DNA of 34,249 nt from the IMG/VR virus record IMGVR_UViG_3300042545_000493, positions 1 through 34,249 of that record; one strand, given 5' to 3'. Within the stretch, counting starts at the first letter, position 1. The number at the start of each line of letters is the position of its first letter. Of this stretch, positions 5,685 through 26,367 are shown one piece after another. This DNA is from a virus. A program made the translations under genes and the position numbers. Below the pieces are notes generated by a model, which had not been told where the DNA came from, searched no databases, and saw only the letters and a program-made list of their open reading frames with translations.

Positions 5685-5716
5685 CAAATTTAAAACGCTT
5701 TTTTTGATTTTGCAAA
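5685..5716 (-). promoter_or_regulatory. Bacteroidota-type promoter (TTTG-N20-TAAATTTG)
   Basis: On the minus strand TTTG at 5716-5713 is followed after 20 bases by TAAATTTG at 5692-5685, matching the Bacteroidota consensus TTTG/TAnnTTTG. The flanks (TTTGCAAA at the -33 side, TAAATTTGCTTCATCAAA at the -7 side) are shared with the promoter at 11385-11415. It drives the gene starting at 5656, with about 25 bases of leader. Confidence 0.8.
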
Positions 5717-11470: not shown

Positions 11471-12115
11471 CTAATTTTGCGCCCGTGCGATACCGAAACC
11501 AATAAACGCACCGAATCCGACCTTCGCCGCCGTTGTTTCGTACCATTTTTTGCGCGGTTGCTCGATTACAAAGCTGCGCAGCCCTTCGGTTATCATATTC
11601 GGGTTATCGATTGCAACCCTAACCACGCTTTCACGCTTGCGAAACGGGAAAACGCCGCGTAAAGTGTCGCCTATACCTACCGAAATAGTCGCGGGGATGC
11701 TTAAGCTATCGATTTGAAGGTATCCGAGGCGGTTAATTTTGCCCGTAATACCAAACCAGCGCTCAAACTTTTGAAATTCACGCGGCAAAACAAGCGCGGG
11801 TATGGTATCGTGTATATAAATTGGGTCGCCTAAAGCTATTTTAGTCTTAAAAACTGTGCGCGTAACGACCTCGACCGCCGCTTTTGGCTTATCGATGCGC
11901 AGTTTTTCGGTTAAGTCCTTAAGTTCTGTTATTTGTTGCCCCTGAGTGTAAATCGTTAACGAATCGTTTAGGCGCGTTTTAACGAACTTTTGTTCGGTTA
12001 GTGCGGTTTGCGCTTGTTCGCTGCACGAACGTAGCAATAAGAGGCTTAAAACGGCTAAAAACAGCAATCTTTCAGCCCAAACGTAGCTTACTGATGTATT
12101 GGTCGATTCTTTCAC
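11471..12115 (-). CDS. Membrane-anchored protein of the lysis region, spanin-like candidate
   Basis: A 214-residue protein starting at GTG 12115, with an N-terminal membrane segment (RLLFLAVLSLLLLRSC, about 16-31), then a helical, periplasm-like region (ITELKDLTEKLRIDKPKA) and a strand-rich domain. A second weakly hydrophobic, Gly-rich stretch (KVGFGAFIGFGIARAQN) closes it. An anchored protein with a periplasmic helix next to holin and lysozyme genes suggests an inner-membrane spanin-like role, but no known spanin motif was recognised. It overlaps the 52-residue gene by 44 bases. Confidence 0.6.
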   Translation of the reverse strand: MKESTNTSVSYVWAERLLFLAVLSLLLLRSCSEQAQTALTEQKFVKTRLNDSLTIYTQGQQITELKDLTEKLRIDKPKAAVEVVTRTVFKTKIALGDPIYIHDTIPALVLPREFQKFERWFGITGKINRLGYLQIDSLSIPATISVGIGDTLRGVFPFRKRESVVRVAIDNPNMITEGLRSFVIEQPRKKWYETTAAKVGFGAFIGFGIARAQN

Positions 12116-12230
12116 GGCATTTAGCTTGTTCGTTTATAATTGCTTTTGCAACGTTGGGCGGCATTTCGCGTTCGGTTAGGTAAATCTTTAGAACTTTTAT
12201 GAGCCGCTTATCAATTTGCTTATCATTCAT
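12072..12230 (-). CDS. Small basic protein, 52 aa
   Basis: A 52-codon frame from ATG 12230, whose first four bases overlap the stop of the PAS-DHp gene as ATGA, to TGA at 12072-12074. The protein is helical and basic (DKRLIKVLKIYLTEREMPPN, then RERIDQYISKLRLG). Coupling to the sensor-like gene upstream supports that it is translated. It overlaps the following membrane protein gene by 44 bases. Function unknown. Confidence 0.6.
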   Translation of the reverse strand: MNDKQIDKRLIKVLKIYLTEREMPPNVAKAIINEQAKCRERIDQYISKLRLG

Positions 12231-12793
12231 ATTTGACGCGTTGCTTTTTTAACTAATACCCTTACGGCTTCGTCCAAATTTACAACCGATTCCTCTAACA
12301 TCCGCAAAAGGTCGGCGCGTTCGCTTTCTGAAATCGCTTTATTGTTGCTTATCAACTTAACCAAGCCACTAACCGAAGTTAAAGGCTGCCGTAACTCATG
12401 TGAAAGCATAAACCTAAATTCCTCAAGTAATACCCGTTGGCGTTCATGTTCGTGCGCCGTTATGCTTGTTACATCAACGAGCTGAAAGCCGATAAAATGC
12501 ACCGCGCCCATAATTGCATAAATATTCCAAACATTGAAACGCTCGGATAAATTTTTTTGCTTGGTTCGGGCGTAAACTCTCGAAGGTTCGGGCTGTTTAT
12601 CCTTTGCCCTTTTAACGGCTTCTATGAGCGTTTCTTTATCCTCGGGGCTGCTAACTATGTCAACAATGTTTTTCGGCTTTATATGGCTCGCGTAATGCTT
12701 AAAAAGTTCGTTAGTGCTTACTATTGTACCGTCGGTTTCGGTTACAACGTAAAACAAGTCTAATGAGTTTTCGAGTATGTACACCGTTGACAC
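12227..12793 (-). CDS. PAS domain plus histidine kinase dimerisation (DHp) domain, no ATPase domain
   Basis: A 188-residue protein starting at GTG 12793. Residues 1-112 have PAS character (VVTETDGTIVSTNEL early, VHFIGFQLVDVTSITAHE at the end). Residues 118-185 form a HisKA-like DHp domain with the H-box FRFMLSHELRQPLTSVSG, phosphoacceptor His132. The protein ends at residue 188 with none of the N, G1 or G2 boxes of the catalytic ATPase domain, and the next genes do not supply one. It could be a phosphotransfer intermediate, a decoy for a host kinase, or a sensor used in lysis timing. Kinases with truncated output are unusual in phages. A TATTTTTG -7 box lies directly before the start. Confidence 0.85.
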   Translation of the reverse strand: MSTVYILENSLDLFYVVTETDGTIVSTNELFKHYASHIKPKNIVDIVSSPEDKETLIEAVKRAKDKQPEPSRVYARTKQKNLSERFNVWNIYAIMGAVHFIGFQLVDVTSITAHEHERQRVLLEEFRFMLSHELRQPLTSVSGLVKLISNNKAISESERADLLRMLEESVVNLDEAVRVLVKKATRQI

Positions 12794-12797
12794 ATTG

Positions 12798-12805
12798 CAA
12801 AAATA
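12798..12805 (-). promoter_or_regulatory. Candidate -7 box (TATTTTTG) directly before a start codon
   Basis: TATTTTTG on the minus strand matches TAnnTTTG and ends four bases before the GTG at 12793, so the transcript could be nearly leaderless. The -33 region at the expected distance is only TTTA, so support is moderate. Confidence 0.45.
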
Positions 12806-12833: not shown

Positions 12834-13229
12834 TTATACGTTTCGCAAATCGGTAATAAGCGAGCGCCACGCAGCGCCGCAACCGATTAAATACTTTGCC
12901 GAAAGCCAAAGCGTAAAACTAAAAACAACACCATTTAAAAGTATATCGTAATTCATAGGCGTTTCAAAATCTTGTGTATTTCTTACGGGTTGACTTTTGA
13001 GCGTGTAGGCTGTGGGCTTTGGGTATAATGACAAATCGCAGGGCTGAATGGTATCGAATGCGGTCAAAACTACTTCGGGCTTTGGATGAACATAAGCCCC
13101 CGAAATAATTGCCTCATACGATTCTTTGTTCGCGTTCACGAAAGTAGTGTCAACCTCATAGCTCATAGTGTCTACGTTGAGCTTATTGTGGCGCGCAATC
13201 TTGACGGTATCTCTACGAACTTGATGCAT
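12834..13229 (-). CDS. Hypothetical protein with C-terminal membrane segment
   Basis: A 131-residue protein with a hydrophilic N-terminal part and one hydrophobic segment near residues 94-116 (ILLNGVVFSFTLWLSAKYLI). It overlaps the holin-like gene by 17 bases and lies in the lysis cassette, so a role in lysis or as a membrane accessory is plausible. The family is not recognised. Confidence 0.65.
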   Translation of the reverse strand: MHQVRRDTVKIARHNKLNVDTMSYEVDTTFVNANKESYEAIISGAYVHPKPEVVLTAFDTIQPCDLSLYPKPTAYTLKSQPVRNTQDFETPMNYDILLNGVVFSFTLWLSAKYLIGCGAAWRSLITDLRNV

Positions 13230-13419
13230 CGTCTTTGGCTTTTGGAATATACCCTGCTGCGATTAGCGTTGCTACAATTGCAGCGAGGGTTTCGGTTGAT
13301 ATCACTTTAAAGATTAGCAAAAAGATTGAAACTAAAATCATAAGGCTTCCGATTGTGCTACGCCAATGCTTGACAATTATGTCTATGATTCGCCTCGGTT
13401 TTGTAGCACGTTTTCGCAT
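13213..13419 (-). CDS. Holin-like small membrane protein
   Basis: A 68-residue protein with a highly basic N-terminus (MRKRATKPRR) and two hydrophobic segments at about residues 22-40 (STIGSLMILVSIFLLIFKVI) and 44-57 (TLAAIVATLIAAGY), with a short polar tail. Size, topology and its position 46 bases after the lysozyme gene suit a class II-type holin that forms holes in the inner membrane. The assignment rests on topology and context, because holins share little sequence. Confidence 0.65.
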   Translation of the reverse strand: MRKRATKPRRIIDIIVKHWRSTIGSLMILVSIFLLIFKVISTETLAAIVATLIAAGYIPKAKDDASSS

Positions 13420-13465: not shown

Positions 13466-13924
13466 CTAAACTTTACAAAGCGAGAAATACAGATTCGCTT
13501 CTTCGCGTCTGCGATTGGTTAGCCCTGCCAACACTTTGCCGCCTGCCTTATTCCAGCGAAGGAACTCATCCAAGATGCTTGGGTCGGCATTGTTCGCTTT
13601 GGCTTTCTTAAGCAACGTGGATTTAATTAATGCACCCGCGCCGACATTGTAGGCAAAGCAGACCAAAGCATCGAACTGGCATTGATTGATATTTATTAGA
13701 TGCTTATTTACCGCAGCTTCAAAAGGCTCAAGTGTGGCAAGCAGCAGTTGAGTTGCTTCCTTTTCGCTTGCGAGCTTTTCTCCTAAAATTACCTTCTTAC
13801 CATTAGGATAACGAGTCGAACCATACCCAATCGTGACAACAGATGCAGGACAGAGGTACGCATTTAATCGCAATCCTTCATACTTCTTAATTAGATTTAA
13901 TCCAAGAGAAGATGTGGAGCGCAT
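13466..13924 (-). CDS. GH24 phage lysozyme (endolysin)
   Basis: A 152-residue muramidase. The N-terminal active site is IKKYEGLRLNAYLCPASVVT followed by IGYGS. The catalytic pattern E16-x8-C25-x5-T31 is the E-C-T variant of the usual E-D-T triad, and occurs in other GH24 endolysins. The later segments FDALVCFAYNVGAGAL and GLTNRRREEANLY are also typical of the family. It cleaves peptidoglycan between MurNAc and GlcNAc. There is no signal peptide, so it should depend on the holin for release. It abuts the fibre-like gene upstream. Confidence 0.93.
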   Translation of the reverse strand: MRSTSSLGLNLIKKYEGLRLNAYLCPASVVTIGYGSTRYPNGKKVILGEKLASEKEATQLLLATLEPFEAAVNKHLININQCQFDALVCFAYNVGAGALIKSTLLKKAKANNADPSILDEFLRWNKAGGKVLAGLTNRRREEANLYFSLCKV

Positions 13925-18435: not shown

Positions 18436-18443
18436 CAAAGATA
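18436..18443 (-). promoter_or_regulatory. -7 box TATCTTTG directly before start codon (leaderless promoter candidate)
   Basis: The minus strand reads TATCTTTGTGCTTATG, with the box ending five bases before the ATG at 18430. The same TATCTTTGTGCT string is found before the start at 21026. A TTTA 17 bases upstream, inside the terminator hairpin, could serve as a weak -33 element. Confidence 0.55.
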
Positions 18444-19760: not shown

Positions 19761-19805
19761 CTAATTACCCTACTAAGTAATCACGTTATGAACGTTACAA
19801 ATATA

Positions 19806-21032: not shown

Positions 21033-21064
21033 CAAAGATAGTTAAATTGAAACTGCAAAACAAT
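21033..21064 (-). promoter_or_regulatory. Promoter ATTG-N20-TATCTTTG for the head genes
   Basis: On the minus strand ATTG at 21064-21061 is followed after 20 bases by TATCTTTG at 21040-21033, six bases before ATG 21026. It points into the scaffold-capsid genes and is divergent from the plus-strand promoter at 21090-21097. Confidence 0.7.
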
Positions 21065-21114: not shown

Positions 21115-22497
21115 ATGATAGGAGTAGCAATAACCACACATAATCGCAGAGATACCGCGCTGGAAACAGTTGCTAAATGGAAATCAACGCTGCCAAATGA
21201 AGCCGTTATTTTAGTCGTAGACGACGCAAGCGATGAACCATACCCAAACGCCGATTATCGTTTCGAGGTTAACGTAGGTATTGCCAAAGCAAAAAATAAG
21301 TGCATCGAGTTGCTAATTGAAAAGGGTTGTACCGAACTATTTTTAGCCGATGACGATTGCTACCCTACTTCGCCTGATTGGTGGGTAGCCTATACCGAAA
21401 GCCCTTACCCTTTGCTATCTTACACGTTTTCGGTTGTTGCAAAAAGAATACAAAACGGTAATAGATTAATAAAAAAAGACGGCGCGCATAAATGGTATTC
21501 AAACCCTTGCGGCTGCATGGTGTATATCAATAAAAGTGTAGTCGATAAAATAGGCGGTTACGATGCGAATTATTCGCTTTATGGTGATGAGCATTTAGAT
21601 TACGCTATACGCGCTAAAAACGTAGGGCTTATACCTTATGCTTATATTGATGTTTTTAACCCTCTTTTTTATTGCTTAGACGAAGCTGGTAATTATCGAA
21701 CCTCGCGTATCGACGCAGCCGCGCAAAGTTATTTAAGCCATAGGCGGCTATCGGAGCAAAAGCGTAGCACAGCTTTTATGCCTTACCACGAAACCAAAAA
21801 CGAATTACAAAAGCCTTACATTCTTTCGAGTTATTTCAATTACGCAATTGACCCACAAAGAAAAGTTAAGTGGGCTAATAGTATTACGCCGCTTTTGCCC
21901 TTAATGAATAGCTGCAAAGATTTAGGGGTTCGGCTGGTAATCTTAACTAATTGCGATTTTGAAAACGACGGAACGACTGAATTTATAAAAATAGAAAACC
22001 CCGATAATCAATTTAGCCCTAACGATTTTCGCTGGTTAATTCAGTTGGACTATATCCAAAAGAATACAGCAAGCCACGTATATTGCGTAGACGCGACTGA
22101 CGTTGAGGTTCTTCGTAACCCTTTCGAGGTTAATAGCAATTTGCTTTATGTTGGCTACGAAAAGGGGCAAACGCTTGCCAGCCCGTGGTTATGGTCGCAT
22201 CAATGGAGGCATACTAAAAACGCTAATTACTTTAATATGTTAAAAGCATCAAAGAGCTTTACTCTTTTAAACTGCGGCGTTGTAGGTGGCAGCTATTCTA
22301 TTGCCCTTAGATTCTTTCAACTCATGGCAAATGAAACTTATTTCAATGCTAAAAAAACACAAAGGGCTATGGATATGGCAAGTTTTAACTATGTTGTTTA
22401 TTCGCGCTTCGCTGATTCGTTTGTAACAGGCTCGGAAGTAGTTACCGAGTTTAAAGCGGACGAAAGAAATACCGTGTCAATGTTTAAACATAAATAG
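21115..22497 (+). CDS. Two-domain glycosyltransferase (GT2-type GT-A plus second GT-like domain)
   Basis: A 460-residue protein on the strand opposite to its neighbours. Residues 1-215 are a GT2-type GT-A domain: TTHNR (7-11), LVVDDAS (33-39), the DxD-type FLADDDC (76-82) and YGDEHLDYAIRA (156-167) as the catalytic acceptor-side motif. Residues 230-460 look like a second transferase, with VYCVDATDVEVLRNPF (322-337) as a DxD-like site and LLNCGVVGG (384-392). It may transfer two sugars in sequence. The acceptor may be a virion protein, modified DNA or host surface glycan; none is proven. It is flanked by its own promoter and followed by the small plus-strand gene. Confidence 0.85.
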   Translation: MIGVAITTHNRRDTALETVAKWKSTLPNEAVILVVDDASDEPYPNADYRFEVNVGIAKAKNKCIELLIEKGCTELFLADDDCYPTSPDWWVAYTESPYPLLSYTFSVVAKRIQNGNRLIKKDGAHKWYSNPCGCMVYINKSVVDKIGGYDANYSLYGDEHLDYAIRAKNVGLIPYAYIDVFNPLFYCLDEAGNYRTSRIDAAAQSYLSHRRLSEQKRSTAFMPYHETKNELQKPYILSSYFNYAIDPQRKVKWANSITPLLPLMNSCKDLGVRLVILTNCDFENDGTTEFIKIENPDNQFSPNDFRWLIQLDYIQKNTASHVYCVDATDVEVLRNPFEVNSNLLYVGYEKGQTLASPWLWSHQWRHTKNANYFNMLKASKSFTLLNCGVVGGSYSIALRFFQLMANETYFNAKKTQRAMDMASFNYVVYSRFADSFVTGSEVVTEFKADERNTVSMFKHK

Positions 22498-25788: not shown

Positions 25789-26367
25789 TCATAGTTTCTG
25801 TATTATTGATAAGCCACGCCCCTCGGAAGTGTTGAGCGTAACAACGTTATAATTATATTCTTTAACGTAGCGCATTAATTCGCTTACGTCGGCAATGTGC
25901 AGCGTATCATGGTAAGCAATTATACCGCCTTTTGCGATTATGCGCTCAATTTCTTTGAACTCGGCTAATATGTTTTCAAAACTATGGTCGCCATCAACAA
26001 AGATAAAATCGAAATGGTTTGCTGGCATTGATTGAATAACCGTTATCGATTGCCCTAAAATAAAATCAACAGCAACGCCGCTGCGCTCGAAATTATGCTT
26101 TCGGTAATCCGTTATATCTATGCCTGCATAATAACCGCCTATCGGTAGCGCCTCAATCATTTTAACCGAGGTTTCACCTTCGAATACTCCAATTTCTAAA
26201 ACCGCTTTAGCGCCTTGCATTTTAATTAACGAACCGATAAACTCGCACACATCAACTTCGCTATTCCATTCGTGGCGAATAGTTTCCCTTTCGGGCAACG
26301 GCTCAAGCCCGTATATTTCAATAGGCTGTTGACGGTTAGCGTTTTCCTGTAACATATTTATTTTCAA
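25789..26367 (-). CDS. SAM-dependent methyltransferase (class I, Methyltransf_24-like)
   Basis: A 192-residue class I methyltransferase. Motif I is VLEIGVFEGETS (56-67), the acidic residue after strand 2 is in GIDITD (82-87), motif IV region is DFIFVDGDHSFEN (120-132), and GGIIAYHDTL (147-156) follows. This is the pattern of Methyltransf_24-type O-methyltransferases often found in sugar and glycan biosynthesis. It lacks the (D/N)PPY or PC motifs of DNA methyltransferases. It overlaps the glycosyltransferase gene by 32 bases, so it probably methylates the sugar that enzyme adds. Confidence 0.85.
   Translation of the reverse strand: MKINMLQENANRQQPIEIYGLEPLPERETIRHEWNSEVDVCEFIGSLIKMQGAKAVLEIGVFEGETSVKMIEALPIGGYYAGIDITDYRKHNFERSGVAVDFILGQSITVIQSMPANHFDFIFVDGDHSFENILAEFKEIERIIAKGGIIAYHDTLHIADVSELMRYVKEYNYNVVTLNTSEGRGLSIIQKL

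Follow-up and report, generated by a model that had tools for sequence, protein, structure and literature searches.

The locus examined here raises the question of what a phage could do with a protein that resembles the sensor half of a histidine kinase and ends where the ATPase domain would begin. It lies in a 34,249-nucleotide stretch of viral DNA (IMG/VR record IMGVR_UViG_3300042545_000493, positions 1 to 34,249), which we call the window. A preliminary description made from the letters alone had placed a PAS plus DHp protein without an ATPase domain at positions 12227 to 12793. These coordinates were right, with the gene on the minus strand, and the product, as judged from profile matches and a structure model, is a predicted PAS fold joined through a DxT linker to a complete DHp/HisKA domain of two helices, without an ATPase domain (Table 1). 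A chance open reading frame was considered and rejected.

Table 1. Positions in the window of the PAS-DHp gene, its parts, and its neighbors.
Feature	Position	Strand	Remarks
Lysozyme (endolysin) of the phage	13466..13924	minus	PF00959, E 1.2e-39; PHROG endolysin, E 7e-52
Holin-like small membrane protein	13213..13419	minus	Weak PHROG holin match, E 0.063
gp12834	12834..13229	minus	Conserved; C-terminal hydrophobic stretch
TATTTTTG, Bacteroidota -7 promoter-type box (TAnnTTTG)	12798..12805	minus	Position -12 from the PAS-DHp start codon
PAS-DHp protein, 188 aa	12227..12793	minus	Sensor plus DHp, no ATPase domain; GTG start at 12793, TGA ending at 12227
PAS-fold region, residues about 11-106	12476..12763	minus	AlphaFold model and Foldseek; sequence matches weak
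DHp helix 1, residues 113-150	12344..12457	minus	AlphaFold model; with post-DxT linker and H-box
His132 codon	12398..12400	minus	Predicted phosphoacceptor; HE in 176/176 and HExxQ in 175/176 relatives
DHp helix 2, residues 156-187	12233..12328	minus	AlphaFold model; C terminus of the protein here
Small helical protein, 52 aa	12072..12230	minus	Overlaps PAS-DHp by ATGA; motif DxRL..Y..E..MP conserved
gp11471, spanin-like candidate	11471..12115	minus	N-terminal hydrophobic segment, then Cys, conserved (in LKSC, LRTC, or the like); C terminus hydrophobic and rich in Gly

The DHp assignment is carried by a Pfam HisKA (PF00512) match to residues 129 to 175, with 29.9 bits against a curated cutoff of 26.9 (E 5.9e-7), and all 46 diverse family members tested match HisKA at E up to 0.05, so the similarity to HisKA is real. 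Sequence matches to PAS models are weaker: PAS_9 falls below the Pfam threshold and is found in 2 of the 46 members (best E, 0.0071), and TIGR00229 (PAS) gives 16 bits, below its cutoff of 22.9. The NCBIfam PhoR model TIGR02966 aligns over residues 15 to 180, from the PAS region into the DHp domain (E 1.6e-7, far below the cutoff of that model), and the best PDB chain by profile is ThkA (3a0r). In an AlphaFold2 model computed from 46 family sequences (mean pLDDT, 78), which is a monomer with low confidence at the DxT hinge (residues 107 to 111), the PAS part contains strands at residues 13-18, 23-27, 71-78, 84-94, and 97-105 and helices at 29-34, 43-46, and 50-65, and the two long helices that follow (113-150 and 156-187) form a two-helix DHp hairpin. 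The top Foldseek matches of this model are LOV/PAS histidine kinases (E about 2e-6); for the PAS region by itself, superposition on ARNT PAS-B gives a TM score of 0.75 to 0.82 over about 105 residues. Pfam matches to IcmF-related, YqzH, and similar families were sub-threshold and were discarded.

We found no Pfam match to an HATPase_c/CA domain in the protein. In agreement with the preliminary description, its reading frame closes with DHp helix 2, where a full kinase would run on into the ATP-binding domain. As a yardstick, we sampled 21 viral contigs containing an SHELRTPLT-type box; 20 had an ATPase G-box downstream, and the remaining frame was short and contained no G-box. Thus, the lack of an ATPase domain is not usual for kinases on viral contigs, and because it has none, the PAS-DHp protein cannot autophosphorylate.

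The assignment of the H-box, SHELRQPL, and of His132 within it (codon 12400 to 12398) was also correct, and this segment is the most conserved part of the protein. IMG/VR contains several hundred PAS-DHp relatives, with 375 confirmed in one scan, and the 176 distinct complete proteins from the loci that we fetched are 188 aa (149 proteins) or 189 aa (27 proteins) long. Among these 176, His132, Glu133, and Arg135 are invariant, and residue 136 is Gln in 175 and His in 1. The H-box reads HELRQPL in 162, HEIRQPL in 13, and HELRHPL in 1, all of which fit HE(L/I)R(Q/H)PL, and 18 of the 24 positions from 122 to 145 are at least 98% conserved. The most variable parts of the DHp domain are the hairpin and helix-2 regions, which help to set DHp pairing and partner specificity. 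Across the 46 diverse members we saw a single indel, one residue long and located in the loop of the DHp hairpin; the PAS-linker-DHp unit is free of indels, as expected if the PAS domain passes a signal to the DHp domain.

Measured against the window gene, the median dN/dS is 0.056 for the PAS-DHp gene, compared with 0.16 for gp11471, 0.11 for gp12834, and 0.08 for the lysozyme gene. Even the most remote syntenic relatives retain 57 to 58% identity in the PAS-DHp protein, while the holin-like protein and gp12834 are near 25 to 31% in one clade. Throughout the fetched loci, we found the recurrent order lysozyme, holin-like gene, gp12834, PAS-DHp, small gene, gp11471, with the most diverged neighbors sometimes below detection. 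These loci had been found with the PAS-DHp gene itself, and we therefore ran reverse searches from gp9565 and gp17402. With gp9565, the PAS-DHp gene was present in all loci whose stretch reaches the region; with gp17402, it was in the same place in 47 of 47 loci that have the lysozyme gene and at least 1.6 kb beyond it. Every close relative that we examined thus has the gene, always at the same position, and it belongs to the core genes of this viral group. One 52-kb record, IMGVR_UViG_3300044695_002763 (L273 and L276), contains gp9565 both at one end and inside, a pattern that a redundant end or more than a single genome length would give. Searches of 50,697 phage records with the portal, gp17402, DnaB, and glycosyltransferase proteins as queries returned no close named phage relative, and we found no description of the PAS-DHp family in the open-licence PMC literature.

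These data bear on the proposal that the protein is the decayed remnant of a full histidine kinase. Truncation would explain the missing ATPase domain, but 176 distinct proteins share a common end point at 188 or 189 aa, the gene is under strong purifying selection and present in 47 of 47 loci, and no ATPase remnant was found in the 20 phage records checked. Moreover, we saw neither a full-length, ATPase-bearing ancestor nested in the phage group nor frameshifting of the gene in many relatives. We see no sign of decay and regard this explanation as extremely improbable.

The preliminary description had placed the gene inside a lysis cassette, between holin-side genes and a spanin-like gene. 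The position stands, with the order conserved across hundreds of contigs and the gene following those for lysozyme, the holin-like protein, and gp12834; cassette membership stands only in part, since a promoter box immediately precedes the PAS-DHp gene in the majority of relatives. On the far side, gp11471 has no Pfam or PHROG match. It is a possible unimolecular spanin (u-spanin), a type marked by a lipobox and a C-terminal transmembrane segment: in its family, a Cys follows the hydrophobic segment in 137 of 162 sequences (about 85%), but the K/R at -2 is atypical for a lipobox, and the C-terminal segment exceeds the hydropathy cut in some sequences only.

The promoter box, TAnnTTTG, is the -7 box of the Bacteroidota primary sigma factor (PMC7366714). 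It occurs in the interval from -60 to -1 before the PAS-DHp gene in 81 of 135 distinct upstream sequences (60%; the sequences are related and so do not count as independent events), compared with 3% in shuffles, and is located at -12, -13, or -15 from the start codon. The spacer letters vary (TC, AA, TT, and TA), so the fixed letters of the box are kept while the free letters change. The L052-like clade has no box at this gene. Because the box is so close to the start codon, the message is suggested to be leaderless or nearly so, which is uncommon in Bacteroides, where about 3.7% of 5' untranslated regions are under 10 nucleotides (PMC7366714). The count of TAnnTTTG boxes before the holin-like, lysozyme, and gp12834 genes is 0, and since the box is present before PAS-DHp and absent before these three, the PAS-DHp gene probably heads its own transcription unit, running into the small gene and gp11471.

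Directly 3' of the PAS-DHp gene, relatives carry an open reading frame of 52 to 69 aa, with the ATGA (-4) overlap in 145 of 173 distinct loci; 15 loci were scored as lacking the small gene under a narrow pattern, and several of these show a start codon and a related motif by eye. The proposed coupled 52-residue protein comes from a real, conserved gene. Its supposed basic character is not general: the protein is basic only in the clade of the window, so charge is not its conserved property. A model of the small protein has three helices, and neither fold nor sequence searches gave a significant match.

The gene order and the small partner invite an explanation without phosphoryl chemistry, in which the DHp domain, as an adaptor or switch, signals a cue sensed by the PAS domain to the small or the spanin-like protein, for example, to time lysis. 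The fixed place between the holin and lysozyme genes and the spanin-like gene and the start-stop overlap with a conserved small partner agree with such a role. However, the His, Glu, and Arg residues do not vary among 176 proteins, which argues for phosphoryl chemistry or for a docking face for a receiver or ATPase domain, and a promoter box at PAS-DHp that is absent before the lysozyme, holin, and gp12834 genes argues, if weakly, against strict late coregulation with the lysis genes. We consider the adaptor unlikely, and the lysis-timing role is a guess from gene position.

The box before the PAS-DHp gene points to a Bacteroidota host, and the viruses that carry this gene probably infect Bacteroidota. 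Further TAnnTTTG boxes on the minus strand, at 18436-18443, 19798-19805, 21033-21040, and 5685-5692, fall within intergenic gaps or at their borders, and relatives retain the box ahead of gp17402 and gp13924 as well, so the phage appears to use host-type promoters widely. Elsewhere in the window, a DNA hypermodification pathway is suggested by genes for a Tet/JBP oxygenase (825-1655, minus), a ParB-N protein (1642-2223, minus), and a TET-associated-type glycosyltransferase (21115-22497, plus; PHROG 1579, E 1e-97). No other large annotated gene than that of the glycosyltransferase lies on the plus strand. An O-methyltransferase gene (25789-26367, minus; PF01596, E 3e-17) is located among the structural genes, and PADLOC gave no defense-system match.

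To ask which proteins the DHp domain could work with, we searched 20 phage records for Response_reg and HATPase_c. Neither was found in any of the 20, while control genomes were positive; most of these records are 34 to 40 kb and IMG/VR records may be incomplete, so this absence is strong, not absolute. We therefore rejected an ATPase domain hidden elsewhere in the phage, and any two-component partner must be made by the host. A search of cellular genome contigs with the family alignment gave no cellular relatives, and a stricter H-box pattern in these contigs found one full kinase, in an Alcaligenaceae metagenome-assembled genome. Weak HisKA matches in "Listeria phage" records trace to a kinase region that is also in Listeria records of the plasmid collection.

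Among plasmids, the best match to the PAS-DHp protein is Emticicia oligotrophica WP_015031188.1 (E 1e-4), a 445-aa protein with three PAS domains and a DHp domain that ends the protein. A search with its tail led to further CA-less DHp proteins in Bernardetia and Persicobacter. Bernardetia WP_338815577.1 has the layout GAF-PAS-PAS-DHp and ends 7 residues past the HisKA match; the 368-aa protein on a Persicobacter sp. JZB09 plasmid (L416, 2030-3136), with domains read by eye, is receiver-DHp-receiver without an ATPase domain, a layout that suggests a phosphotransfer role as a one-chain middle piece of a phosphorelay. Thus, Bacteroidota encode DHp domains without an ATPase engine, for which these three plasmid records are examples rather than a survey; we found no description of the function of such proteins. 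Like the phage protein, those of Emticicia and Bernardetia place sensor domains before a terminal DHp domain, and the Emticicia and phage DHp domains share about 35% identity. In contrast to the phage protein, they are longer, have several sensor domains, and are encoded on cell plasmids, and the Emticicia protein has Leu after the His where the phage protein has Glu. The Persicobacter protein also uses a DHp domain without an ATPase domain, but flanks it with two receivers in one chain and has no PAS domain, while the phage has no receiver. Because an acidic residue after the His is missing in two of the three cellular proteins, their chemistry may differ from that of the phage protein.

We tentatively favor, at somewhat below even probability, a DHp homodimer under PAS control that lacks intrinsic kinase activity and targets two-component proteins of the host. 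The preliminary description had offered, as possible roles, interception of phosphoryl groups from host kinases, timing of lysis to host state, or an adaptor; of these ideas, action on host two-component proteins has indirect backing in the lack of phage receivers and HATPase domains, the invariant phosphoacceptor region, and the CA-less DHp proteins of Bacteroidota cells, one of which has a receiver on either side of its DHp domain. The dimeric DHp bundle would dock the receivers of host response regulators, and receiver phosphorylation would be lowered or redirected. His132 might take the phosphoryl group, serving as a drain or a relay in the fashion of a phosphotransfer domain, and/or the DHp domain might promote water-assisted dephosphorylation of host receivers. 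The PAS domain would gate this activity, and the coupled small helical protein may modulate or present it. It counts against this reading that DHp domains usually depend on specific receivers.

The phage protein shares with HisKA sensor kinases such as PhoR, ThkA, and YF1-type LOV/PAS proteins a PAS core with a DxT end, a linker helix, a Pro-containing H-box, and a two-helix DHp domain. It differs from them in lacking an ATP-binding domain and a membrane segment and in having Gln rather than Thr or Asn at +4 from the His. The canonical HisKA phosphatase motif is HD/E-x-x-T/N, and in HisKA kinases the His assists dephosphorylation (PMC7005713). Even without an ATPase domain, a DHp domain can bind receivers, take up phosphoryl groups, and dephosphorylate. 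HK853 stripped of its CA domain is reported to keep phosphatase activity in vitro (PMC7005713), and the siphoning and dephosphorylation by which RetS lowers GacS signaling (PMC12189002) are a further precedent for action on host receivers; EnvZ without its catalytic domain is the case of Zhu et al. 2000, taken here as cited in PMC7005713. The phage family does not match the motif, with Gln at +4 in 175 of 176 proteins and His in 1, which makes phosphatase action a less secure proposal than docking or phosphoryl transfer.

A different course would be interference with host kinases, in which one or more host PAS kinases pair with the phage DHp domain as heterodimers, or phosphorylate it in trans, and have their output blocked or diverted by it. 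The DHp domain is a dimerization domain, the H-box face is nearly invariant, and there are precedents in PIT4 of Pseudomonas phage LSL4, which binds the histidine kinases FleS, PilS, and PA2882 (PMC10714779), and in RetS, which lowers GacS signaling by inhibition, siphoning, and dephosphorylation (PMC12189002). PIT4 offers a parallel in being phage-encoded and directed at two-component systems of the host (PMC10714779), but it belongs to the early proteins and its binding sites are kinase domains, with no DHp domain or PAS-DHp architecture reported. RetS is likewise a kinase-like DHp protein that lowers the phosphorylation of another system (PMC12189002), but it is a cell-encoded hybrid kinase. 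In addition, the hairpin and helix 2 are the most variable parts of the phage DHp domain, and one fixed host partner should constrain them. We consider such interference improbable, ranking it below action on host receivers and above the nonchemical adaptor. For the small protein, Sda, a small protein acting on sporulation kinases (PMC12189002), offers an analogy only, as the phage protein has no sequence or fold match.

In its broader form, the action on host receivers that we favor would mean that a kinase-less PAS-DHp protein, with its cognate small regulator, is what an entire group of Bacteroidota phages needs to rewire a host phosphorelay during infection, a proposal that we consider possible but rather doubtful. 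If it is true, a CA-less DHp domain is the working unit of a viral signaling device for host takeover. Phages are known to bind or inhibit host signaling kinases; a conserved core sensor that retains its sensory and phosphoacceptor parts without an engine would instead tap host phosphorelays directly. The finding also draws attention to the CA-less DHp proteins of Bacteroidota cells, and His132 provides a simple genetic test of what half-kinases do.
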